Source: a bacterium (GTDB lineage Bacteria > Krumholzibacteriota > Krumholzibacteriia > LZORAL124-64-63). From it: DNA of 47,533 nucleotides. Of the stretch, positions 7,201-43,082 are shown one piece after another. The DNA lies in assembly GCA_024223715.1 (NCBI GenBank), contig JAAEOA010000277.1:1-47533 (forward strand). Reading direction: 5' to 3'. The notes under the pieces are model-generated. The model searched no databases and had not been told where the DNA came from. It worked only from the letters and a program-made list of their open reading frames with translations. Each line of letters opens with the position of its first letter. Position 1 is the first letter of the stretch. A program made the translations under genes and the position numbers.

Positions 7201-7467
7201 ATGCAGGATCTAATCGTTTGTATTGGGGAAACCTGCCATCAAAGTGGTGCCGAACACGTGCTTAAGACTTTCATGGACTTGGTTGCCGCTCATAAATTGG
7301 AAAATGAAATCACCATAAAAGCCAGCTTCTGCATTGGCGGATGCTGCGAACAAAATGAAGTGAGCGCCCGTTTGGGCGATAGCCTGTTCCAGGTTTCTCC
7401 TGAAACCGCCGAACAGGTCTTCACAAAACAGGTTCACTCCTCTCCCACTTTAAACCCGGAGGTTTGA
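7201..7467 (+). CDS. Thioredoxin-like [2Fe-2S] ferredoxin subunit of the hydrogenase (HydC/NuoE-like)
   Basis: An 88-residue protein corresponding to the thioredoxin-fold [2Fe-2S] domain of NuoE/HydC, without the N-terminal helical domain of full-length NuoE (usually about 150 residues). The cluster ligands are C7 and C12 (C-x4-C) and C44 and C48 (C-x3-C), with an extra C49. It would pass electrons between the flavoprotein and the catalytic subunit of a soluble hydrogenase. AAGGAGAG lies just upstream of the ATG. The stop is two bases before the ATG of the next gene, whose Shine-Dalgarno sequence lies inside this gene. Confidence 0.8.
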   Translation: MQDLIVCIGETCHQSGAEHVLKTFMDLVAAHKLENEITIKASFCIGGCCEQNEVSARLGDSLFQVSPETAEQVFTKQVHSSPTLNPEV

Positions 7468-7469
7468 AA

Positions 7470-9455
7470 ATGGCTAAAGTAGTCATCGGCGCCTGGGACG
7501 ACCAAAAGGTCGACAACCGGGGCAAACGCTTTTTTGAAATCGATGAATTTGACGCTCTGGGCGACTTCAAGGAATTTGATCCGGGCAACCGCATAAAAGC
7601 CTTCCTTGGTGGAAAAGGATTTTTTGTATTCGACAAAGATGTCTCCATTATGAGCGCCATCCGGGATTATCTGGAACGGTCAGCCAACGAAAGTTGCGGT
7701 AAATGTACACCCTGCCGCACGGGAACCCGGATTCTCGTTGAAAAATTAAATGACGTTTGCGAGAACGGTACCTGTGATCGCAAAATGGAAGAAATTCATG
7801 AACTGGCCGAACATATCCAATCGAGCAGCCTCTGCGGATTGGGCCAGTCTGCAACCGTACCTCTGCTCCAGTTACTGGATAATTTCCCTGAAATTGCCGA
7901 AGAAGAACTGCGAAGCGGAGCCGCCGCCGTGGCGCAGCCCAGCCAAAGCTACGTGACTGCCCCCTGTATTGAAGAATGTCCCAGCAAAGTCGATGTGCCA
8001 AGATACATTGATTATTTAAAAGACGGGAAGTTCTCTCATTCGGTAGGCGTTGTACTGCAAAAATATCCGATGGCTGCCACCTGTGGCCGTGTTTGTGTTC
8101 GCTTTTGCGAAATGGCCTGTCGCCGCACCCAGGTTGACGACGCCGTGGGAATCAAAGTCCTTAAACGTTTTGTCGCTGACCAGGAAAAATACGCCAGCGA
8201 TCATTGGTTTAGCAAAGACCTGATTACCGATCCCAAACCCGATGACCTGAAGGTCGCCGTCATTGGCGCCGGACCGGCCGGTGTTTCCGCTGCCTACCAC
8301 TTGTTGCTCAAAGGCTACAAAGTGGAAGTTTTTGAAGCCATGACCGAACCTGGTGGCATGGCTGCCGTGGGTATACCGGAATACCGTCTGCCCAAAGAAG
8401 AAATTTTGCGCAAAGAAGTTTCCATCATTGAAGATCTCGGTGGAACCATTCACTACAACCAGCGCATGGGTAAACACTTCACTCTCGATACCCTCATTGA
8501 AGATGGCTTCAAATCTGTATTCCTGGGTGTGGGTGCTCACAAGGGAAAAGCCATGGGCGTACCCGGTGAAGAAACCTCCATTCAAGGTTACATCACCGGT
8601 GTAAAATTCCTGCTCTTCATTAATCATTACCACATTAACATGGGTGTGGAAATGGACCTTGGCGATAAAATGGTTGTTGTCGGTGGCGGCAATGTGGCCA
8701 TGGATTGTGTACGGTCCGCTTTACGCATGGGCGTCAAGGAAGTGCATTTGGTCTACCGTCGCACCCGCAAAGAGATGCCTGCCGATATTGAAGAAATTGA
8801 AGCTGCAGAACACGAAGGTGTCATCTTCCACTACCTGACGCACCCAACCAAAGTTATCAGCGAAGATGGAAAAGTCACCGGTTTGGAACTGATAAAAATG
8901 GAACTGGGCGAAGCTGACCAGAGTGGCAGAGCCAGAGTTATTCCCGTCGATGACAGTGAGTTCACCCTGGATACTGATTTTGTGGTTCCGGCCATTGGCC
9001 AGAAAGTAGACCACAGCTTCATAAGCCCTGAAGAAGGGGTTGAGTTCAACAACTGGGGCCTCATCCAGGCCGACGAGCAAACTCTGCGCACAACCCGTCG
9101 CGGAGTATTCGCCGGTGGCGATGCTGTGACCGGACCGGCCACCCTGATTGAGGCCATGGCCCAGGGTCAACAGGCAGCCGAAAGTATCGACGATTATTTA
9201 ACCCACGGCCGTTTGAAGTTCCGCCCCGAACGACGGTTCCAAAAGCTGCTTAAAGAGATGCGGTCACTGCATTCTGAAGATGTTGTGCAACCCATCCGCC
9301 ACTTGTACCGGGTCAAGGTCGATGAGTTGGACCCGGAAACCCGCAAAAGAAAATTCGAGGAAGTGGAAAAACCCATTTCCGTGGACGCGGCCTACCGCGA
9401 AGCCGAACGCTGCATGCGCTGCTACCGGGTCTACTCGGTAGTAACTGAGAAATAG
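7470..9455 (+). CDS. NuoF-tail/GltD-like flavoprotein subunit of the hydrogenase
   Basis: A 661-residue fusion. Residues about 55-140 match the C-terminal Fe-S domain of NuoF/HydB (SCGKCTPCRTG, C76/C79/C82 plus C122 in LCGLG). Residues about 160 onward match GltD/NfnB: cysteines at 166, 170, 205, 209, 213 and 217, the FAD motif GAGPAG at 266-271, a second dinucleotide motif VVVGGGNVAMDC and the FAD-closing motif GDAVTGPATLIEAMAQG. An extra CMRC lies at the C-terminus. The FMN/NADH Rossmann domain of normal NuoF is absent. The ATG at 7470 is chosen over the TTG at 7464 because GGAGG (7458-7462) is seven bases upstream. It probably exchanges electrons between NAD(P)H and the hydrogenase. Confidence 0.85.
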   Translation: MAKVVIGAWDDQKVDNRGKRFFEIDEFDALGDFKEFDPGNRIKAFLGGKGFFVFDKDVSIMSAIRDYLERSANESCGKCTPCRTGTRILVEKLNDVCENGTCDRKMEEIHELAEHIQSSSLCGLGQSATVPLLQLLDNFPEIAEEELRSGAAAVAQPSQSYVTAPCIEECPSKVDVPRYIDYLKDGKFSHSVGVVLQKYPMAATCGRVCVRFCEMACRRTQVDDAVGIKVLKRFVADQEKYASDHWFSKDLITDPKPDDLKVAVIGAGPAGVSAAYHLLLKGYKVEVFEAMTEPGGMAAVGIPEYRLPKEEILRKEVSIIEDLGGTIHYNQRMGKHFTLDTLIEDGFKSVFLGVGAHKGKAMGVPGEETSIQGYITGVKFLLFINHYHINMGVEMDLGDKMVVVGGGNVAMDCVRSALRMGVKEVHLVYRRTRKEMPADIEEIEAAEHEGVIFHYLTHPTKVISEDGKVTGLELIKMELGEADQSGRARVIPVDDSEFTLDTDFVVPAIGQKVDHSFISPEEGVEFNNWGLIQADEQTLRTTRRGVFAGGDAVTGPATLIEAMAQGQQAAESIDDYLTHGRLKFRPERRFQKLLKEMRSLHSEDVVQPIRHLYRVKVDELDPETRKRKFEEVEKPISVDAAYREAERCMRCYRVYSVVTEK

Positions 9456-9464
9456 GAGGCGATC

Positions 9465-11255
9465 ATGAACGCAACCATCAATGGCCGAAGCATAGAGTTC
9501 GCCACCGAGCAAACCATTTTGGAAGCCGCCCGCGCGGATGGACAATTTATTCCCACCCTTTGCGAATTGGCCGATATTGGCCACACACCTGGAACTTGCC
9601 GTATGTGCATTGTGGAAGTCAGCCGGCCAGGCCAGAAAAAAGCCCAGCTCCTGACTGCCTGCGATACACCCGTGGAAGAGGGTATGGTTATTCGCACCCG
9701 CACCACGGAAGTTCGTCAGCATCAGCGTCTGCAAATGGAACTCCTGCTGGCTGATCACAATCAGGATTGTGCGTCCTGTGTTCGCCACGGGGATTGTGAA
9801 CTGCAGGACACCGCTCAATTTGTAGGCCTGCAGGGAACCCGTTACACCAACCCGGAATACCATGCCGGACGTTGCGTGGATCGCACCAGCATTGCCATCG
9901 AACGCGACATGACAAAATGTGTGCGTTGTCAGCGCTGCCTCGCAGTATGCCGTGATGTGCAAGGCACCGACGTATTGGTTTTTTCAGGAACTGGTTTGAA
10001 CGCCGAAATCGGGATACGCGACAGCATCGCCATGGGCGATAGCGATTGCGTCAGTTGTGGACAATGCACATTGGTTTGTCCCGTTGGAGCCTTGGCCGAA
10101 AAAGATGACACCGAAAAAGTTATCGACTATTTCTACGATGAAGATATTTTCACCGTCATTCAAATTGCCCCCGCCACCCGTATTGCCCTCGGTGAAGAGT
10201 TTAATATGGGCTACGGAGAAAACGTTGAAGGCAAATTGATCAGCGCCTTTGAACAACTGGGAGCCGATGTTGTTCTGGATACAAACTTCACCGCTGACCT
10301 GGTGATTATGGAAGAAGGCAACGAACTGCTGAGCCGCATTCAGAACGGCGGCACCTTGCCTATGTTCACCAGCTGCTCTCCCGGTTGGGTTAACTGGCTG
10401 GAAAAGAATCATCCCGAATTGAGGGACAATCTTTCCACGGTCAAATCGCCTCAGCAGTGCTTTGGGGCCGTGGCCAAAACATATCTGGCAGACCGTATGA
10501 ACATTGATCCTGCAAAAATGCGGGTCATCAGCATTATGCCCTGTACGGCCAAAAAAGAAGAAGCGGCCCGGCCCGAGTTCACCATGGATGGACGCCCGGA
10601 TGTAGACGTTGTGTTAACCACTCGCGAATGCGCTCGACTGCTGAAGCGCGAAGGTGTTTGGCTGCCCGGTCTTGCCGAAGGAAAATTCAACAACGAGTGG
10701 ATGGGGCTGTACTCCGGTGCGGCTGAAATATTTGGCACCACCGGTGGAGTGACCGAAGCTGCTGTTCGAACCGTGCACTATGCGGTGACCGGTAACGAAC
10801 TGCCCGCCATCGACTATGAGGCCATTCGCGGCTACGAACACATGCGCGAAGCTGAAGTTGATCTGGGTGAGAAAGGCACAGTTAAAGTTGGGGTGGCCCA
10901 CGGTCTGGCAGCTGCCAAAAAAATGATTGAAAGAGTGCAAAGCGGTGACGCCGACTACACCTTTATTGAGTTCATGGGTTGCCCCGGCGGCTGCATGGGC
11001 GGAGGCGGCCAACCACGCATTAAGAAGAACTACCAGAGCTTCTGGCATGAACGTCAGCAAGCAATCTATAAAATTGACAAGGAAGCGCCAATTCGGCAGT
11101 CTCACAACAACCCGTGCATTCAGAAAATCTATGATGAATTTCTGGGTGAACCACTGGGCAAGAAGTCGCATGAATTGCTGCATACTCACTACCTCGACCG
11201 TAAGGTGGACGTGAAGCATGACATGAAGACCATTTGGGATGAAATTCGGGGTTAA
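9465..11255 (+). CDS. hydA: [FeFe]-hydrogenase catalytic subunit (HydA, M3-type domain layout)
   Basis: A 596-residue group A [FeFe]-hydrogenase. In order: a plant-type [2Fe-2S] domain (C33, C44, C47, C66), a His-Cys3 [4Fe-4S] site (H98, C102, C105, C111), two ferredoxin clusters (C152/155/158/162 and C195/198/201/205), then the H-cluster domain. H-cluster motifs are TSCSPGW (C304), MPCTAKKEE (C360) and EFMGCPGGCMGGGGQP (C506, C510). It catalyses reversible proton reduction to hydrogen. With the two genes before it, it forms a soluble three-subunit enzyme like bifurcating or NAD(P)-linked hydrogenases. The residue after C304 is Ser instead of the usual proton-relay Cys. No maturases (HydEFG) are in the window. 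Confidence 0.96.
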   Translation: MNATINGRSIEFATEQTILEAARADGQFIPTLCELADIGHTPGTCRMCIVEVSRPGQKKAQLLTACDTPVEEGMVIRTRTTEVRQHQRLQMELLLADHNQDCASCVRHGDCELQDTAQFVGLQGTRYTNPEYHAGRCVDRTSIAIERDMTKCVRCQRCLAVCRDVQGTDVLVFSGTGLNAEIGIRDSIAMGDSDCVSCGQCTLVCPVGALAEKDDTEKVIDYFYDEDIFTVIQIAPATRIALGEEFNMGYGENVEGKLISAFEQLGADVVLDTNFTADLVIMEEGNELLSRIQNGGTLPMFTSCSPGWVNWLEKNHPELRDNLSTVKSPQQCFGAVAKTYLADRMNIDPAKMRVISIMPCTAKKEEAARPEFTMDGRPDVDVVLTTRECARLLKREGVWLPGLAEGKFNNEWMGLYSGAAEIFGTTGGVTEAAVRTVHYAVTGNELPAIDYEAIRGYEHMREAEVDLGEKGTVKVGVAHGLAAAKKMIERVQSGDADYTFIEFMGCPGGCMGGGGQPRIKKNYQSFWHERQQAIYKIDKEAPIRQSHNNPCIQKIYDEFLGEPLGKKSHELLHTHYLDRKVDVKHDMKTIWDEIRG

Positions 11256-15534: not shown

Positions 15535-16461
15535 ATGGACCAGCGTGCAGAAAAACTAAACCGCCCTTCGGTACCCGCTCTTGATGACATTCTGGGTGTG
15601 CCTTTTAAAGTCCTGGACGATGGCCTGATCAGAGTTGTCGACTACATGGGCGACGACCCGGCCATTGTGCAAGCCGCTCGGGTTTCTTATGGCGACGGCA
15701 CCAAAAAGACCAGCGACGACCGGGGCCTCATTCGCTACCTCTTGCGTCATCGGCACACGACCCCGTTTGAAATGTGCAGCCTGAAACTTCACATTCGGGT
15801 TCCCATGGATGCCTGGCGGCAGTGGATTCGGCACCGGACTGCCTCAGTCAATGAAACGAGCACAAGGTATTCCATTGCAATAAGTTCAAGCCAAACAACT
15901 CAACCCGACCAGTGGCGAATCCAAGCCACCGACAACAAACAGGGTAGCAGTGGCTGGCTCGATTCAAATGCTGGCGCAGAACTGACCCAGGCCGAAACTG
16001 ACTTCCACAACACAGCCCGTGAAGTTTACGACCAGCGCCTGGAAAATGGCGTGGCCCGCGAACAGGCCCGTAAAGATTTGCCACTGTGCACGTACACCGA
16101 AGCCTATTGGAAAATGGACCTGCACAACTTGCTGCACTTCCTGGCTTTGCGCATGGACCCCCACGCTCAAAAGGAAATCCGCGACTACGCCACTATTATT
16201 GGCGAAGAAATTGTCTCACGTTGGGTACCCAAAACCTGGGAAGCTTTTCAGGACTACCGTCTCGGGGCTGTGCATTATTCTCGCATTGAACATGAAATCA
16301 TGGCTGCGGTGGGAGCGCAAAATCTGGACCAGGCCAACGCTATTGCCACGGAGGCCGGCTGGCTTAAACCATCCAAAAAAGGTGGCCTGCTGCGCAACCG
16401 TGAGCGCGATGAATTGACTGCCAAATTGAAGTCCTTAAGTCTCGCTGTTCCCTGGGAGTAA
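15535..16461 (+). CDS. thyX: FAD-dependent thymidylate synthase ThyX
   Basis: A 308-residue flavin-dependent thymidylate synthase that makes dTMP from dUMP with methylene-tetrahydrofolate and NADPH. The ThyX signature is complete: RHRTASVNETSTRY at 99-112. RHRHTTPFEM at about 71-80 is the other conserved segment. It is longer than the common 220-250 residues because of N- and C-terminal extensions. AGGAG precedes the ATG. It lies between hutU and a PgeF-like gene on the same strand with very short gaps, suggesting an operon. A PgeF-like neighbour fits a loose nucleotide-metabolism theme. Confidence 0.95.
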   Translation: MDQRAEKLNRPSVPALDDILGVPFKVLDDGLIRVVDYMGDDPAIVQAARVSYGDGTKKTSDDRGLIRYLLRHRHTTPFEMCSLKLHIRVPMDAWRQWIRHRTASVNETSTRYSIAISSSQTTQPDQWRIQATDNKQGSSGWLDSNAGAELTQAETDFHNTAREVYDQRLENGVAREQARKDLPLCTYTEAYWKMDLHNLLHFLALRMDPHAQKEIRDYATIIGEEIVSRWVPKTWEAFQDYRLGAVHYSRIEHEIMAAVGAQNLDQANAIATEAGWLKPSKKGGLLRNRERDELTAKLKSLSLAVPWE

Positions 16462-16464
16462 TTT

Positions 16465-17220
16465 TTGGAGATTGTGAACAACAGCAGTTCAGCGCCGTTC
16501 ATCTACTTTAATAACCTCGCAGAGGTTGATGGCATTACTCATGCCGTTAGCACCCGTCAGGGCCCAGCTTTTGGACAAGTGGGAACCGATGCAGCCACGG
16601 CTCAAGCTGCTGCTGAATGTGCCCGCGTTTTGAAAATGTCGGGTACCGCCTGGGCCCATCAGGTTCACGGAAAGACTATCCTGAAAGTTTCAGCCCCCGG
16701 GTTAGCAGGCCAGGCCGACGCTTTAATTTCCAATACTCCAGGCCTCTTGCTTGCGGGTCGCAGTGCCGACTGTCCCATTGTTCTGGTTTCTGGTCACGAC
16801 ACTGCGGGCAAACCTGCGGTGGGTTTTGCCCATGCGTCCTGGCGATCCACGGTTCAAAACATCACCCAACTTTTGATTGCCAAACTCACCGACAGTTTCT
16901 CCTGTCAGACCGAAAGCTTTCAGGCAGCCATCGCCCCATCGGCCGGGCCCTGCTGTTATGAAGTTGGCCAAGAGGTACGGGATCAAGCCTTAAAAGAACT
17001 TGGGCCTATTGCCGCCAAGTTTTTTAAGGTCCATCAAGACCGCTGGATTTTCGATTTGTGGTCAGCCAATGTGTGGCAACTTTTGCAATCCGGTGTTTCC
17101 GAAAAAAGAATTGAATGCACTTGCATTTGCACCATGTGCCAGGGTGATAATTTTTGGAGCTGGCGTCGGCAAGGTCCCCGGGCCGGGCGTTTTGCTGGAC
17201 TCATTGGGGTCACTTTGTAA
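16465..17220 (+). CDS. PgeF/YfiH-family protein (laccase-domain purine/peptidoglycan-editing enzyme)
   Basis: A 251-residue protein of the YfiH/DUF152 family. Members have been reported as zinc-dependent adenosine/inosine-acting enzymes and, in E. coli, as a peptidoglycan-editing factor. Conserved parts are WAHQVHG, QADALIS, GRSADCPIVLV, GFAHASWRST (commonly AHAGWRG) and GPCCYEVG, which carry the metal-binding His and Cys residues. The Gly-to-Ser and Gly-to-Ser/Thr changes in the AHAGWRG loop are mild oddities. The start is most likely TTG at 16465, with GGAG seven bases upstream inside the end of thyX; a GTG at 16474 is an alternative. Confidence 0.85.
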   Translation: MEIVNNSSSAPFIYFNNLAEVDGITHAVSTRQGPAFGQVGTDAATAQAAAECARVLKMSGTAWAHQVHGKTILKVSAPGLAGQADALISNTPGLLLAGRSADCPIVLVSGHDTAGKPAVGFAHASWRSTVQNITQLLIAKLTDSFSCQTESFQAAIAPSAGPCCYEVGQEVRDQALKELGPIAAKFFKVHQDRWIFDLWSANVWQLLQSGVSEKRIECTCICTMCQGDNFWSWRRQGPRAGRFAGLIGVTL

Positions 17221-17328
17221 CTCCGCTGGAAAAACTAATCCCTCCCCGGGGAGCACTTGCCAAATCTCTCAACTCAGTTAAGATGAGTACAACTTAATCC
17301 GGTAACCAAAATCTGAAAGGAGCCGGTC

Positions 17329-17673
17329 ATGGCCAAACGCGCCGACTGGTACTACTACCGCAACGGCTGAACCAGCTGCAAACGCTCGCAGGAGTATCTT
17401 GCGAATCATGAATTTACCTTCAAATCCGAAACCAATGCCAGTGCTAAACTGGGTGCCGACAAAGCCCGGGAACTCATTGCCGCTTCATCTAAAATTGTGG
17501 TCATGAAGGGTAAAAAAATTGTCGAATTCAAAATGAAGGACAAACCTTCTGAAGAAGAAATGCTGAAGGTCATGCTGGGCACGACCGGCAATCTTCGCGC
17601 CCCTACCATTCAACGGGGAAAGACACTTCTGGTGGGTTTTAATGCCGATAAATTCGATGAAATACTTGGCTAG
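17329..17673 (+). CDS. ArsC-fold selenoprotein with in-frame TGA (UxxC redox motif)
   Basis: The frame from ATG 17329 (AAGGAG at 17317-17322, six-base spacer) to TAG 17671-17673 encodes 114 residues with one in-frame TGA at codon 14 (17368-17370). The start reads ADWYYYRNG, then TGA, then TSCKRSQEYL. The TGA therefore sits exactly where the first cysteine of an ArsC/Spx-like CxxC site belongs, giving U14-T-S-C17. The C-terminal part (GNLRAPTIQRGKTLLVGF) matches a small ArsC-like family in which I recall Cys- and Sec-containing members. A bacterial SECIS-like hairpin follows the TGA. Expected role: a cytoplasmic thiol/selenol oxidoreductase; substrate unknown. A gene caller would miss it or start it late. 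Confidence 0.85.
17386..17404 (+). promoter_or_regulatory. Bacterial SECIS element
   Basis: Eight-base-pair stem TCGCAGGA / TCTTGCGA (one G-U pair) closed by a three-base loop GTA at 17394-17396. The loop begins with G, and 23 bases separate the TGA from the loop. These match the published bacterial SECIS rules (apical loop of 3-14 nt, G in the first two loop positions, 16-37 nt from UGA). SelB would bind here. Confidence 0.75.
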
Positions 17674-26601: not shown

Positions 26602-26802
26602 TGGGGGGTCTCACTCTCAGATAGTTTGTCAATGTACCTTTTGCCCGGAGTTTAATCGGACAGAACTACTAATGCAACCAACATGGAGGCCCGGCGTTTT
26701 GAGACCTTTTAAATTAATTTTTGAATACTCACAATCAGATGTGTCCTGTTGGTAAGGCTTGCACATAAGCGAATCTCGATTACCAATCACGGGGGAAAAT
26801 TC

Positions 26803-29800
26803 ATGATTTCACGTCATAGCCTGATTTTAGTCGCCATTCTTATGGTCCTCTTTTCGGTCTCTGCACCAGCCAGAACACCCACCCTTTTCCAAACCAATGA
26901 AATAGACAATCCCGTTGCCAGTAAAGGAATTAACCCGGCAAAAACCCAAATTGACTCCACAGTTATTATGGGCCCCTGGGGCAGTAACACCTCCTTCAAT
27001 GGCCAATTCCAAACCCCAACCGGTGCACCCAACTGGAACGAATGGACTCACCGCGACCTGACTTTGCCAGAAGGCGGAAACCATTGGCATGTTGACTCTT
27101 ACCACGCTGCCAATCTTGCGGGTCACGGACCGGGAAATCTGGCTGCCTGGTGTGGCTCCCTCGACTTTCCCGCCTGCTCAGAAACTGATCCCGAAGGCGG
27201 TTACGGCAACAATTATGACGATGCTCTGGCCTGGACTGTTGAAATTGAAATCCCAAACCAGCCAAGCGTTGTCACCCTTGATGCATGGCTGAACCTCGAT
27301 TTGGAGCCCGGTTACGATTATTTGAAATTGCTGCTCCTTGGACCAGACCCTGAAAACGATTTCCAGGTCATTTCTGAATATGATGGCCTCATGAGCAACC
27401 AACACCTCAGCTGGGAAATCACCATTCCGGCTGGAGAATACTCAGGAATCGAAGGCAACGAAATTGAGTTGCGTTTCCAGGTCACTTCCGACGGAGCCTG
27501 GTCCGACGAAGACTGCTTATTCAGCAGTGCCGGAGCTTGCCAGATTGATGATGTATCAGTTCAGGTTGACAACGGAAACATAAGTACTTTTGACGACTTC
27601 CAGTCTGGTCAGCTTGGCAACTGGATTGCTTGCGACCCTTCGGGGCGTGGCGATTTCAGCCAAATCAGAACCCATCTGGTTGAAATTGACGAATGCCAGG
27701 ACAATTTTTCTCCTCAGGTTTGTTTCATCGATGACGGAATTGTCGTTCCCGGCACGGGTGGCTCTCAATGCATCGACTGGTGTTACGGCCCCGGCGGATT
27801 CATTGTCAACCCCATGGGTGGCCTGCTGCCTATTCAGGGAACAGGCGACGGTTTGCATAATGCTGTTGAATCGCCCATAATGCCCTGGCCGGAAAATGCT
27901 GTTGGAGGCGTTTTGGAATTCGATGTTTATGCTCATGAAACTCTGGACTTCGACTCCCCCTCCATCTTCTTTAACTGGGCTGTTCGGTCCACGGCAAGCA
28001 ACAACCCCGATGATATTTCACAGGGCTCCTGGCAAAATGCCAATTTTGTTTATTATGGTGGACCAGGCTACCGCCGGCCCCTTCATGACCTGAGCCCATA
28101 CCTTGAAGACTCAGCCACTTTTGTTCAGGTGCGTCTGGAAATGGTCCAAATTGTGGGATGGTTCTGGCCAGGAGAAAACGGCACTCCCGCTCCTTACTTT
28201 GACAACGTCAGAGTGACTGCCATCCATACTGAGGGCCCCAGGATTGAAGTTTATTCCCGCGACCTGGCCGGTGATTCTTTTCCCGCCTCCGGAGAACTGG
28301 ATTCGGAAAATCTGGCAAACAACAGTGTGCGCTTCGATTCTCATCGGGAAAAAACAAGTGGCAACCCCATTTTTGAACCTCGTGATGCCCTCGAGATATC
28401 AGCCTTCATTCGCGGTGACGGCGTCACTTTGAATACACCCAGAATTCACTACCGGCTTATACCCAATCCGGTTTTTGATTCGGTGCGGAATTCAGGTTTA
28501 CCCAATGTCGGCTCCGTTGAAGGAGTGGCTGTTTCCAGTCAAGGCTATTTCAATTTGGATCTACCCGATACCGGATTCTTCTTTCCCGGAGATATCATTC
28601 ACTATTATTTCTCTGCCACCCAAAGCACAGCCAATGGTGGCCTGGAAACGTCAATCGTTCCCGCCGATACAACTGGTTTTTCCGAAAATCCCTGGGGAGC
28701 CAACTCCCAACAGCCAGGCCTTGAAACCTACAACGAAAATTTCATTGTGCGGGCCTTGCCCAGTTTATCGGAAAACTTTAATCACCCCAAAATTCTGGTG
28801 TGGGAAGATTCCGGTCAAATCGATGTTGTTCAAACCCTGCGCCACGATTTAAACCAGGCCCAGTCCTGGAACCTGCACCGTGGATTCGATTTATACCGAC
28901 GCCCATACCAAAACAGCAAACGCACTCTTTCAGCAGACGCGACGGCTGAAATATTGTCTGGCTACGATGCCATTTTCTACTTCAGTGGCAATACCCAGAG
29001 TCGCATTTTGGGCTCATCCTACACAGAGAGTCTCGACGTTCTGACCCAATGGTTGCAACAGAACAACAACCGTGGACTCTTCATCAGTGGCGACCAGGTC
29101 CTCACTTCATTGAACTCCACTGCTGAAGGCACGGCTCTTCTTACTGACTACCTTGGTGTGGAATTTGTTTCCAGCGACCTGCGTCCGCTCATCGACAACA
29201 TTCGTTACCCTGAGGTCCTGATCGATTCCACGCAACCGAACTACTTCGGCAATATCGATTCCTGGCGCCTTCATGGTTTTTGCCCAAGCCCCGGCATTAT
29301 GGACGCGGTGCAAACAGTCTCTGGAGCCACCCGAATTGGGGAGTTTGCCGATAACAATGGCCATGGCGGATATTTCCCTTACTCGGCTGTTTCCATGCAC
29401 ACTGGACCCAACCAGACCCTCACCTTCAGCATGCCTTATGACTTTCAGAGAATAATGCCGACCGCACAGTGGACCAACAATGGCATATCCCTGAGGGCGG
29501 AGATTTTAAGGCACCTGGCCGCCCCCTATGTTGGTGACGGTTTACCATTTGTGGACTTGAGCCCCGTCCCTGAGCATTTGAAGCTGTCAGCCAGGGCTTA
29601 TCCCAATCCATTCAACCCGGCCACAACCATCAGCTTTCATTTGCCTTTCAAAGGTCATTTGAGTCTGGAAATATTCAACCTGCGCGGCCAGTTGGTCAAC
29701 ACCCTTGTTGACGAAGAACGACCTGCTGGACCAGGCCAGGTTCTTTGGAACGGGAACAATATGAACGGCAGTGCGGTAGCCTCTGGAGTTTACTTCTACC

Positions 29801-29853
29801 GGTTGCGGCATAAGGATGAAGTGATTTCGGAAAAACTGATGATGATCAAATAA
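26803..29853 (+). CDS. Large exported protein with FlgD/type-A-like C-terminal domain
   Basis: A 1016-residue secreted protein. I start it at ATG 26803 (GGGGGA upstream), which gives the signal peptide ISRHSLILVAILMVLFSVSA. The body has beta-rich jelly-roll-like segments with acidic and aromatic residues, and a Rossmann-like stretch near 690-860 (ILVWEDSGQIDVVQTL, GLFISGDQVLTSL). The last 85 residues are an Ig-like FlgD/type-A domain: AYPNPFNPATTISFHLP, IFNLRGQLVNTLVD and ASGVYFYRL. Such domains end many exported FCB proteins and often act in secretion or surface attachment. Function of the body is unknown. Confidence 0.75.
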   Translation: MISRHSLILVAILMVLFSVSAPARTPTLFQTNEIDNPVASKGINPAKTQIDSTVIMGPWGSNTSFNGQFQTPTGAPNWNEWTHRDLTLPEGGNHWHVDSYHAANLAGHGPGNLAAWCGSLDFPACSETDPEGGYGNNYDDALAWTVEIEIPNQPSVVTLDAWLNLDLEPGYDYLKLLLLGPDPENDFQVISEYDGLMSNQHLSWEITIPAGEYSGIEGNEIELRFQVTSDGAWSDEDCLFSSAGACQIDDVSVQVDNGNISTFDDFQSGQLGNWIACDPSGRGDFSQIRTHLVEIDECQDNFSPQVCFIDDGIVVPGTGGSQCIDWCYGPGGFIVNPMGGLLPIQGTGDGLHNAVESPIMPWPENAVGGVLEFDVYAHETLDFDSPSIFFNWAVRSTASNNPDDISQGSWQNANFVYYGGPGYRRPLHDLSPYLEDSATFVQVRLEMVQIVGWFWPGENGTPAPYFDNVRVTAIHTEGPRIEVYSRDLAGDSFPASGELDSENLANNSVRFDSHREKTSGNPIFEPRDALEISAFIRGDGVTLNTPRIHYRLIPNPVFDSVRNSGLPNVGSVEGVAVSSQGYFNLDLPDTGFFFPGDIIHYYFSATQSTANGGLETSIVPADTTGFSENPWGANSQQPGLETYNENFIVRALPSLSENFNHPKILVWEDSGQIDVVQTLRHDLNQAQSWNLHRGFDLYRRPYQNSKRTLSADATAEILSGYDAIFYFSGNTQSRILGSSYTESLDVLTQWLQQNNNRGLFISGDQVLTSLNSTAEGTALLTDYLGVEFVSSDLRPLIDNIRYPEVLIDSTQPNYFGNIDSWRLHGFCPSPGIMDAVQTVSGATRIGEFADNNGHGGYFPYSAVSMHTGPNQTLTFSMPYDFQRIMPTAQWTNNGISLRAEILRHLAAPYVGDGLPFVDLSPVPEHLKLSARAYPNPFNPATTISFHLPFKGHLSLEIFNLRGQLVNTLVDEERPAGPGQVLWNGNNMNGSAVASGVYFYRLRHKDEVISEKLMMIK

Positions 29854-32865: not shown

Positions 32866-34593
32866 TTGTCTAAATCGCTCATGAAAATAATAGCTCTGGC
32901 CTTACTAATCGTTGGAGTTGGGGTTGCCTCAGCAGAAGCAAGTCCGTCAATTACCGAAATTAGCAAGTATCTGGTTATCTCAATGGGTGACGATGCTGAT
33001 AACGGCAGAGCTTTCCAAATGTCCAATTCGGAGATCGGAGCAGACCGAAAGGTCCTCTCCACGCCCTCCGATCAGGGTTTCCCAACCAATGGATCCTTCC
33101 CTAATCTCTTTGATGTATTCGAGGAGCGCAGTACTGGCGGGAGTAATCCTCGTTGGGATACTAACGCCGACCCGAATGTCGTCTCCGTTTCCGGCGAGGG
33201 CTTGGTAAGTCCCATAGAAAGTATTGATTGGTCCGGAGAAGTGGCCTTGACATCCAATGGAGGCCGAGCCGACCTCTCCAACTCTCTGGTTTTTGCAGAG
33301 ACAGGTATTCAGGGTGTTGTAAGTAACCCATTGCAGGGTTCCTCCAACAGTAAATACCTCAATGTTGGAGAAACCAGCCCAGGCGAGGCATCCGCACTCG
33401 CCCTTAATAATGGAGCCACCGGCAACAATAACTTCTCCTCTTTGCTGAGTGAACTCGGCAATTGGAAAAGCTTCATTCAAGGTCTTTCGGCTGATAAAAC
33501 AATCACCAACCTAAATGCTTACCAAAATAACGAGGCAAATAATGGTTTCATTCAGGGCACGTCGGGCAACGGGCTCATAACAACCTTTGGCAGTTCTGAT
33601 GATACCAATGGCGATGGCATTGTTATTATCGATATCAATCCGAACGATGAGTTTGGCGATTTTAATCTGACTAACTTAGATTGGGCGATTATTGTCAATG
33701 ATGATGTCCTCCCCATATTCAGGTTGCGCGAAGGCAGCAACATGATCATGAACAATGTCAGCATTTTAGTCAACAACGGCTGCTGTGGTGACATTAGGGC
33801 CATCTTCTATTCTGGCTACGAAGGCGATAGTGGTGATACTGTATTCAACGGTGGCTCGAACGTTATTCTCAATGGCATCGGCCTGTGGGACCTGAATGCT
33901 GTTGGAGAAGGCGGCGGTGACGTCAAAACCAATATCAATATCAATAATGCTCAAGGTTGTGCCCAGTTCATTAGCCAGAAGGTCAACTTTCAGAACAATC
34001 GTTGGAATCGCTGTAATGATGATGGCACCGTGGCGAACTTTCTCCAGTTCCACGAGTCGGGCTGGGTGGACGGCGGCGTGGAGTTAAGCTGGCGTCTCAG
34101 CGAGATCTCTCCCGCTTTCCAGTTCTCCCTGCAACGTCAGATGGAGAACGGACACTTTGTGACTTTGGATGACGCCGTCCTTCACGAGAACGGAATGGAG
34201 TTTATCTTCCGTGATCTCACGGCCGAAGCCGGGCAGGAATATATCTACCGGGTGGTCCTTGACTCGGAAACGGGACCAAATGTGCTGTTCGAGACGATGG
34301 TCACCACGCTTGTGGGTAAATTCGCTCTGCATCCCAACTGGCCCAACCCATTCAACCCGTCGACAAAGTTGGCGTTTGAGTTGGCGACTCCTGCGCGTGT
34401 GCGGCTGAATATCTTTGATACTGCTGGTCGCCTGGTTTCCACTCTGTTGGATGAACAACGAGGAGCAGGACGGCATGAGCTTGTCTGGAACGGACAAAAC
34501 GATGCCGGCCAGCCTGTTGCTTCGGGTGTGTATCTGTACCGGTTTGAAGCCGGTGATGTGGTGCAAACCAAGCGGATGATGATGTTGAAATAA
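32866..34593 (+). CDS. Exported protein with FlgD/type-A-like C-terminal domain
   Basis: A 575-residue secreted protein. Start is TTG 32866, because AAGGAG (32854-32859) is six bases upstream; the ATG at 32881 is an alternative. The signal peptide (KIIALALLIVGVGVASAEA) is followed by about 430 residues rich in Asn, Asp, Gly and Ser, with the beta-strand rhythm of a beta-solenoid or choice-of-anchor domain (NMIMNNVSILVNNG, NVILNGIGLWDLNAVG). The C-terminus carries an Ig-like spacer and a type-A-like domain: NWPNPFNPSTKLAFEL, IFDTAGRLVSTLLDEQ and ASGVYLYRFEAG. Probably cell-surface or released; specific role unknown. Confidence 0.75.
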   Translation: MSKSLMKIIALALLIVGVGVASAEASPSITEISKYLVISMGDDADNGRAFQMSNSEIGADRKVLSTPSDQGFPTNGSFPNLFDVFEERSTGGSNPRWDTNADPNVVSVSGEGLVSPIESIDWSGEVALTSNGGRADLSNSLVFAETGIQGVVSNPLQGSSNSKYLNVGETSPGEASALALNNGATGNNNFSSLLSELGNWKSFIQGLSADKTITNLNAYQNNEANNGFIQGTSGNGLITTFGSSDDTNGDGIVIIDINPNDEFGDFNLTNLDWAIIVNDDVLPIFRLREGSNMIMNNVSILVNNGCCGDIRAIFYSGYEGDSGDTVFNGGSNVILNGIGLWDLNAVGEGGGDVKTNININNAQGCAQFISQKVNFQNNRWNRCNDDGTVANFLQFHESGWVDGGVELSWRLSEISPAFQFSLQRQMENGHFVTLDDAVLHENGMEFIFRDLTAEAGQEYIYRVVLDSETGPNVLFETMVTTLVGKFALHPNWPNPFNPSTKLAFELATPARVRLNIFDTAGRLVSTLLDEQRGAGRHELVWNGQNDAGQPVASGVYLYRFEAGDVVQTKRMMMLK

Positions 34594-41149: not shown

Positions 41150-42769
41150 TCACTTCAGCAGGACCATGTTTCGTGCAACCATGCCATTAGCAGTCTTCAT
41201 AACGTAGACATACTGACCGGAAGAAGCGGAAGAACCATTTCTATTGGTACCATTCCAGGTCACGAAGTGATCGCCGGCAGACATATTCTCGCTCACAAGG
41301 TTGGTCACCAGGCGACCGGCAATATCATAAACCGCAAGACTGACGAATCCCGGTTTATCCAGGGAGAAGTCGATACGAGTCATTGGATTGAAGGGGTTCG
41401 GGTAATTCTGGCCCAATTCAGCACCAAGCAACGCTGTATTGTTGGGCACTGCGGTAACATCGTCCTCGCTGAGAATCACGTTGTCGTAAATAATTGCCGA
41501 AGGATGGTAGCCCGTAGCAGAACTCGAAAAACCGAACTGGAAGAACTGGCCAACAAGACCGGCATCGATAGCCAGGCTCAGAGAGTATCCGCTCCATTCG
41601 CTGTTGATGTTGGACATGTCGACACTGACAAAGTTGGTCATGTCGAAGTTGCTGTTGGGATCGATGGTCTTGACGAATGCCAAAGCCGTTGCTGGCGGAA
41701 TAACTCCACCGTTAGCCGGCATTTTGGCCTGAAACTCGAAAACCCAGGTCTTGCCGATATCGTCGGGGCCAATGATTTGTTCCTGGAAGACATTGGCTTC
41801 GATAAGATCACCGTTGGTTTGGGCATCGGCGTTCTCATAATCGCTGAACACGGATATCTGCTGGACACCTTGTTCATCGCCACCTTCGCCTGTGACGATG
41901 GTGCAGAATGCCGGAGCGGAAGGGTTATTGGGAGCGGAGAACGGGCCATAGCCGTACGCAAATTCGCCGGTAACTGCGTCAAAGACGTTAGCAAAGATCA
42001 ACCAGTCATCATCACCCAGAGCGTCAACATCGGCCGCATTCAGGGCCTCGAAGTCCTGGCTGTAAGCAACCATTCCATTAGGGCCGCTGCCACCGTCAGT
42101 GGTCAGAACCAGGTTGTCATAAATGATGCTTGAGCCGGCATACAAGGCACAATCGTTGGAGAAACCGACTTGGAAGATATGGCCAATCTGACTTGCGTCG
42201 ATGGTCAGAGTCAAAGAAGATCCATCCCAATCGGCAGGAGTAGCTGTCATGTCCTTACTGTCTTCGGCTGATGTGGAATAGCCTGCACTGGGATCCAATG
42301 TTTTAATCCAGGCCATGGCTGTGGAAGGCGCAACAAGGGTACCCATCTTGGCCTGGAATGAGAAAGTACAAACCTTGCCAACGTCAGCGGCAGTCACGTT
42401 GAACTCTTTGAAGAAGCTGGAAACAATAAGATGGCCAGCCGCGTGGTCACCGTTTTCATAATCGCTGAAGACGGAAAGCTGCTGGGAACCCTGCTCGACG
42501 CCACCTTCACCAACGACGATGTTACTGAAGGCAGGAGCTGCGGGGTTGTTTGGGGCTGGGTTTGTACCGTAGCCATAAAGCCAGTTGCCGGAGTCGCCAT
42601 CGAAGACGGTGCCATAAACAACCCAGCCGTCGTCCCCCAGTGCGGCCATGTCGGCAGCGTTCAGACCTTCAAAGTTCTGGCTGAAATCCGAAATCGTTGC
42701 GAAAGCCGCTACGGGTACCAAGCAAATCAACGCGACAATTGCGATCATGGCTTTTGATTGAAAATTCAT
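41150..42769 (-). CDS. Exported protein with two tandem jelly-roll-like repeats and FlgD/type-A-like C-terminus
   Basis: A 539-residue secreted protein; the ATG at 42769 has AGAGAGG upstream and gives signal peptide MIAIVALICLVPVAAFA. Two repeats of about 205 residues follow. Each begins FSQNFEGLNAADMAALGDDG or YSQDFEALNAADVDALGDDD and shares YGYG, APNNP, VGEGG/TGEGG, QLSVFSDYEN/QISVFSDYEN, FQAKM and a final SIIYDNLVL/AIIYDNVIL. This resembles carbohydrate-binding jelly-roll modules. The C-terminus has NYPNPFNPMTRIDFSLD, VYDIAGRLVTNLV and SSGQYVYVMK. It is transcribed divergently from the glycosidase-barrel gene, behind a long structured leader. Confidence 0.8.
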   Translation of the reverse strand: MNFQSKAMIAIVALICLVPVAAFATISDFSQNFEGLNAADMAALGDDGWVVYGTVFDGDSGNWLYGYGTNPAPNNPAAPAFSNIVVGEGGVEQGSQQLSVFSDYENGDHAAGHLIVSSFFKEFNVTAADVGKVCTFSFQAKMGTLVAPSTAMAWIKTLDPSAGYSTSAEDSKDMTATPADWDGSSLTLTIDASQIGHIFQVGFSNDCALYAGSSIIYDNLVLTTDGGSGPNGMVAYSQDFEALNAADVDALGDDDWLIFANVFDAVTGEFAYGYGPFSAPNNPSAPAFCTIVTGEGGDEQGVQQISVFSDYENADAQTNGDLIEANVFQEQIIGPDDIGKTWVFEFQAKMPANGGVIPPATALAFVKTIDPNSNFDMTNFVSVDMSNINSEWSGYSLSLAIDAGLVGQFFQFGFSSSATGYHPSAIIYDNVILSEDDVTAVPNNTALLGAELGQNYPNPFNPMTRIDFSLDKPGFVSLAVYDIAGRLVTNLVSENMSAGDHFVTWNGTNRNGSSASSGQYVYVMKTANGMVARNMVLLK

Positions 42770-42777
42770 GATAGAAA

Positions 42778-43082
42778 CCTCTCTAGCCTGCATGGTTCTG
42801 ATCACTTTGCCTTTTGGGTTAGGCAATCAGAACTTTGCAGGCTGACAGTTAAGGGACGGTTTCCCGTCTGGGCATTTTGCCCAAGGTTATTCTTGGGCGC
42901 TTCGTTTTCCAAGCGTGTCAGCAACGGAATAGCAAGTAAAAGCGGCATCCGTTTTTGTCCCTGGGAAGTCCCTGGCCTCTCGCCGGGTGTCAAGTAAGGA
43001 ATTAGCGGGAAGCAGTTGCCGGTTAGAAACCCTCCGCCACAGAGGGTCGAGGACCGGAAAAGCCGGGTTATCCTTCAGGACA
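42778..43082 (-). promoter_or_regulatory. Structured 5' leader RNA (candidate cis-regulatory RNA)
   Basis: About 300 bases between a clear promoter and the ATG at 42769, with no gene. Next to the Shine-Dalgarno sequence (42778-42784) is a long hairpin, 42785-42843: arms AGCCTGCA/TGCAGGCT, then GTTCTGAT/ATCAGAAC, then TGCC/GGCA. Before it, GCTGACA (42841-42847) pairs with TGTCAGC (42916-42922) around several hairpins, including one that reads GACGG-GAAA-CCGTC on the minus strand (GNRA loop, 42855-42868) and CGCTT/AAGCG (42898-42915). CCC at 42880-42882 can pair with GGG at 42870-42872 or 42895-42897, so two folds compete. Further hairpins lie at 42923-42953 and 43029-43047. I cannot assign a known riboswitch class. 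Confidence 0.6.

Follow-up and report, generated by a model that had tools for sequence, protein, structure and literature searches.

An ArsC-like gene of Krumholzibacteriota with a TGA predicted to encode selenocysteine, and relatives without the second cysteine

Introduction

Selenoproteins of the ArsC type have already been catalogued, and the description closest to the gene presented here is NF041106 (ArsC_rel_Se_1, 'ArsC family (seleno)protein'), a family that a 2026 review (PMC13188914) enters as UxxC, where U is selenocysteine (Sec). The gene lies in a stretch of 47,533 nucleotides (the window), contig JAAEOA010000277.1 of a draft genome assigned to the Krumholzibacteriota (GCA_024223715.1; 4.6 Mb, completeness 90%, contamination 6.65%), and its reading frame is interrupted by a TGA three codons ahead of a Cys. 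The predicted Sec of the window gene occupies the same UxxC site as in NF041106, and we found nothing that distinguishes the gene from this family. In contrast to the UxxC entered in the review, some members in the window's phylum have UxxS or UxxA.

The Global Ocean Sampling set (PMC2398784) contains two related entries, 'Arsenate reductase 2' (cd03032), given as UxxC, and ArsC 1 (pfam03960), given as UxxS. The former, a UxxC selenoprotein like the window gene (a likeness of description, not of sequence), is probably the NF041106 family, because the review cites its reference 61 for NF041106 and the list entry before 62 ends with PMC2398784. The family is known from NCBIfam and the 2026 review, and its description probably dates from the 2008 ocean survey. 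The TIGR00014 arsenate reductase is UxxS in the review and represents another branch, as does ArsC 1, which means that a UxxS site by itself is no novelty among ArsC-type selenoproteins. All statements on the literature, here and below, refer to the portions covered of PMC2398784, PMC13188914, PMC1088965, PMC9312934 and PMC2801614, in which we found no tested function for the NF041106 family.

Here we propose that the window gene is an intact member of NF041106 whose UGA is translated as Sec by the organism's own SelA, SelB, SelD and tRNA-Sec, yielding a 114-residue protein with a predicted thioredoxin fold that would act as a glutaredoxin-like thiol-disulfide reductase. We consider this proposal, taken as a whole, likely.

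Results

The window gene and the Sec machinery of its genome

The gene lies exactly where the original prediction had placed it, with a 114-codon frame, a single TGA at codon 14, a Cys at codon 17 and a ribosome site ahead of the start (Table 1). In an NCBIfam profile search, NF041106 matched residues 6-109 of the protein with 118.5 bits (cut-off 85), and a six-frame search of the genome with the same model gave 110.9 bits for the window gene, supporting the view that it encodes an ArsC-type selenoprotein of an already catalogued family. This family has Sec (TGA) or Cys at its catalytic position, and the window gene has TGA there. Pfam ArsC (PF03960) scored 23.7 bits, just under its gathering cut-off of 24, and many of the homologues returned by a protein search carry the PF03960 tag. 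The closest named carriers of the gene belong to Candidatus Krumholzibacteriota / Krumholzibacteriia. A second, weak match in genome G000 (C364:7805-7975; 39% over 57 residues) contains four stops and was judged to be due to chance.

The original prediction also implied that this organism makes Sec. As expected, searching the genome recovered the complete machinery: tRNA-Sec with the anticodon UCA (69.5 bits, cut-off 47), selB (331 bits, cut-off 242), selA (438.5 bits) and selD (367 bits), the last with its own internal TGA inside a GUAAK stretch. Elsewhere TGA serves as a normal stop, terminating 7 of the 27 listed main open reading frames (ORFs) of the window, as had been stated. The in-frame TGA of the window gene is very likely decoded as Sec. 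When the window was scanned with loose criteria, for a TGA that follows a start codon having a ribosome-site-like sequence and precedes at least 80 open codons, seven candidates came up; the homologue search was made for the selenoprotein gene alone.

TGA and Cys alternate at codon 14 in relatives

Within the window's family (38 genomes, its own included) the gene is present in 17, each time with one TGA. NF041106 exceeded its cut-off in 19 of the 80 genomes sampled from the phylum, with exactly one TGA in 19/19 matches. At the named loci, which are the best 80 of 561 relatives and come from several phyla, codon 14 is TGA in 77 and TGC in three. A larger sample on the planctomycete side comprised 392 genomes from the same phylum as G080, which is the source of the Phycisphaerae record L072; 80 of these exceeded the cut-off, giving 81 rows, 70 with TGA and 11 free of it. 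Nine of these 11 were read and all have Cys at codon 14, as do all 12 TGA-free genes read in total. All three refuting conditions named at the outset thus turned out in favor of the selenoprotein: the Sec machinery is there, Cys and TGA alternate at this codon, and in the alignment of homologues the protein is conserved on both sides of the TGA, with conservation continuing downstream.

The presence of selB (E 1e-65 or better) followed the form of the gene in the 392 genomes. Of the 235 genomes with selB, 68 belong to the 70 that carry the TGA form, 2 to the 10 that carry the TGA-free form alone (nine of these ten read as Cys) and 165 to the 312 without the gene. One planctomycete genome, G153, carries both a TGA-free and a TGA form (contigs C12 and C5) and was counted with the TGA group.

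The record L134, also from a planctomycete, has a second in-frame stop, TAG, five codons past the TGA, where others have Arg or Lys; this suggests a sequencing error or a decayed copy. In genome G033, locus L054 (about 1470-1800) holds an ArsC/YffB-like gene that is not the one described here. It has an in-frame TGA at a CxxC-type site, scores 32.1 bits, below the NF041106 cut-off, and likely encodes a further ArsC-type selenoprotein of this class.

A SECIS-like hairpin follows the TGA

As in bacterial selenoprotein genes, a hairpin with a G in its tip lies just past the TGA, resembling a selenocysteine insertion sequence (SECIS). This is the predicted eight-base-pair hairpin with a GTA loop, which folding confirmed at its expected place; it starts 15 nucleotides (nt) after the TGA, and the surrounding 66-nt stretch folds at z -2.35 relative to shuffles. 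Rfam, at gathering thresholds, gave no match in the window. A G-U at nt 27-28, with the T of the TGA as nt 1, is found in 19/19 phylum copies, and one stem type is common to 17 of the 19. In L048 and L053, which belong to a different family of the class, this position is taken by a stem of a quite dissimilar type, and several proteobacterial loci have a stem resembling this second type.

The hairpin was compared across 111 distinct genes, 99 of the TGA form and 12 of the Cys form. The longest local stem is capped by a loop containing GU in 90/99 TGA forms vs 0/12 Cys forms, and GU occupies nt 27-28 in 92/99 vs 1/12. The median stem measures 7 base pairs (bp) in TGA forms and 4 bp in Cys forms (p 1.4e-6).

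The second Cys is lost in part of the phylum

The UxxC site of the original prediction holds for the window gene but not family-wide. The second Cys, at position 17, is replaced in 6 of the 19 phylum copies, by Ser in L024, L025, L026, L028 and L031 and by Ala in L029, and none of the six has any other Cys. Two metagenome fragments, P0003 and P0004, also appear to have Ser there. All 12 Cys-form genes read keep the second Cys; at 6/99 Sec forms vs 0/12 Cys forms, the loss is too infrequent to be taken, on its own, as distinguishing the two. The gene tree is weak (few columns, 48 of 108 forks open) and its counts are minima: eight changes between Sec and Cys, and two changes for the loss of the second Cys, with a single loss not rejected (approximately unbiased test, p-AU 0.704).

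If these six copies are expressed, their Sec has to work on its own, helped by an outside thiol. They provide a natural test of whether a lone selenol can function in this ArsC-fold branch. The literature searched, whose scope did not extend to Haft and Gwadz 2023 and Haft and Tolstoy 2025, makes no mention, in the portions covered, of UxxS or UxxA forms of the NF041106 family. Within this literature NF041106 appears by name in one paper, and a single paper, on a bioreactor, came up for the phylum and Sec together.

Proposed mechanism

Our model suggests that SelB docks on the hairpin 15 nt past the UGA and brings Sec-tRNA, as the hairpin and the machinery together would allow. The selenolate of Sec14, positioned where the first helix begins in the predicted structure, would attack an oxidised substrate. 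A selenenylsulfide would next form with Cys17, to be opened by a cellular thiol. In the Ser17 and Ala17 relatives an outside thiol, either thioredoxin or a low-molecular-weight thiol, would need to resolve the intermediate instead. The reductase step is predicted from fold and motif. With respect to glutaredoxin and NrdH-redoxin, the window protein differs by additional residues that separate its core parts, a trait it shares with ArsC, and the NrdH profile matches it weakly (21.5 bits, cut-off 85.75).

Several observations weigh against this model. The fold scores are middling. The longest uninterrupted stem is shorter than 6 bp in 17/99 TGA forms, and GU is not in the loop of the longest stem in 9/99; shuffling synonymous codons separates TGA from Cys genes weakly (p 0.085). 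The 19 closest sequences show modest covariation, with two of seven pairs changing on both sides, a result reached by 95 of 500 shuffles, and shifting the register by -2 raises their score slightly (0.184 vs 0.172). As for selB, it exceeded the cut-off in 28 of the 30 genomes tried from the named loci, including all three with the Cys form (L103, L107 and L114), so the Cys form also lives in genomes that decode Sec. Conversely, selB was not found in the TGA-form L076 and L119, nor in two TGA-form genomes of the 392-genome sample, although a missing selB proves little because the genomes are mostly drafts. Finally, selB is present in 36 of the 38 genomes of the window's own lineage, so the co-occurrence test has no power there.

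Alternative readings of the TGA and of the protein

We next weighed whether the TGA could be a true stop, a sequencing error or the mark of a pseudogene, with nothing past codon 13 made from this start. The use of TGA as a terminator elsewhere in the window would fit this, as would the short entries in public databases, where gene callers have mostly annotated nothing but the portion past the TGA (of 120 homologues listed from 294 found, about 100 are 75-101 residues long). However, the TGA is kept in 17/17 family carriers and in 77 of the best 80 relatives across phyla, the protein is conserved on either side of it, and across the 392 genomes selB goes with the TGA form; on these grounds we reject this reading as extremely improbable. 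That the codon is instead read as Trp or another residue, through a code change or a suppressor, is rejected as having next to no chance, even if the metagenome homologue P0066 was deposited with Trp at the Sec position, since gene calling with code 4 would give the same. TGA ends other genes of the window, the TGA-free relatives that were read have Cys rather than another residue at codon 14, and a complete Sec system is present. The original prediction had already argued that reassignment is not the explanation, and the genome search agrees.

Two known ArsC-fold functions were weighed for the protein. It could be a Sec-containing regulator like Spx of Bacillus subtilis, in which a Sec-Cys bond would switch RNA polymerase binding. 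Of the proteins with solved structures, Spx matches the sequence best (E 3.5e-10), and it is also among the top folds; the two proteins share the fold, the UxxC position coincides with the C10-C13 switch, Sec replacing Cys10, and Arg90 aligns with the R92 region of Spx. Yet the Spx/MgsR model TIGR01617 gives 36.5 bits against a cut-off of 75.05, and Spx residues 49-52, including the RNA polymerase contact G52 (PMC2801614, portion covered), face a gap in the family profile alignment. Moreover, no internal switch could form in the six phylum copies without a second Cys, and we regard this function as very unlikely and reject it. A true arsenate reductase with Sec as its catalytic residue is also rejected as quite unlikely. 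In its favor are the ArsC-like sequence with its near-threshold Pfam score, the invariance of Arg90 in 30/30 aligned rows, and the selenium forms of arsenate reductase that three papers record, within the portions covered. Nevertheless, no arsenate reductase model, TIGR00014 included, matched at E 1e-3 or better, and among the Pfam-scanned genes of the window no ars gene turned up. In the ArsC motif HX3CX3R, an Arg stands four residues after the catalytic Cys. The window protein has Lys18 in this column, and Arg occurs there in 1 of 111 rows. We thus retain the thiol-disulfide reductase as our preferred reading of the window gene.

Genomic neighbourhood of the selenoprotein gene

Table 1. Positions of the selenoprotein gene, its elements and its upstream neighbors in the window
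Feature	Position	Strand	Basis
Selenoprotein gene, predicted to contain Sec, ArsC-like; 114 codons plus TAG (17671-17673)	17329..17673	+	NF041106 match, relatives, conservation
Ribosome binding site AAAGGAG	17316..17322	+	Direct sequence reading
In-frame TGA, codon 14, predicted Sec	17368..17370	+	TGA/Cys in relatives; selB co-occurrence
Codon 17, second (resolving) Cys of the UxxC site	17377..17379	+	Translated frame
SECIS-like hairpin, 8 bp, loop GUA (17394-17396)	17386..17404	+	Folding; relatives
thyX, flavin-dependent thymidylate synthase; upstream neighbor, also in relatives	15535..16461	+	Pfam Thy1; clustering
Gene with PgeF/YfiH-like multicopper oxidoreductase domain, between thyX and the selenoprotein gene	16465..17220	+	Pfam over cut-off

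ORFs were clustered around 81 loci, the 80 named ones and the window, many with short flanks. In 12 of the 81, thyX lies upstream on the same strand; five of the 12 were confirmed as Thy1 by Pfam and the rest were assigned by BLAST clustering. These loci are the window, L059, L060, L062, L063 and L066-L071 from the window's family, and L074 (Planctomycetaceae), the only one outside that family. Counting the stop codon, the distance from thyX to the selenoprotein gene amounts to 24-30 nt at six loci (L063, L067, L068, L069, L070 and L071) and to 90 nt at L074, whereas the remaining five have a gap of about 770-1260 nt. The window is among these five, and its gap is filled by the PgeF-like gene, whose product scores 122.7 with the NCBIfam PgeF model, below the cut-off of 141.15. 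The remaining neighbor clusters are confined to close relatives or unannotated, and many are spurious reverse-strand ORFs.

The proximity of thyX hints at a shared transcript and at a role near the supply of deoxynucleoside triphosphates (dNTPs), and it offers a first lead on the function of the family. A bolder proposal would be that in Krumholzibacteriota the selenoprotein is an NrdH-like redoxin of dNTP supply co-transcribed with thyX, with a lone-selenol branch in which Sec made the second Cys dispensable and it was lost, so that the UxxS and UxxA forms, with no other Cys, would be working single-selenol redoxins. We consider this combination quite unlikely. Going by the literature searched, the occurrence in this phylum, the UxxS/UxxA branch of the family and the link to thyX are possibly unreported. 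The results indicate that a little-studied phylum, Krumholzibacteriota, reads UGA as Sec, with the selenoprotein in 19 of 80 genomes, and that annotation by gene callers tends to be limited to the stretch beyond the TGA.

Other parts of the window contain further recognizable genes. At 7464-11255, a NuoF-like Fe-S/flavin subunit adjoins the large subunit of an [FeFe]-hydrogenase, and together they probably form an NAD(P)-linked hydrogenase. Long ORFs at 26749-29853, 32866-34593 and 41150-42826 (-) have FlgD-like or Por_Secre_tail C-terminal domains and probably encode secreted proteins.
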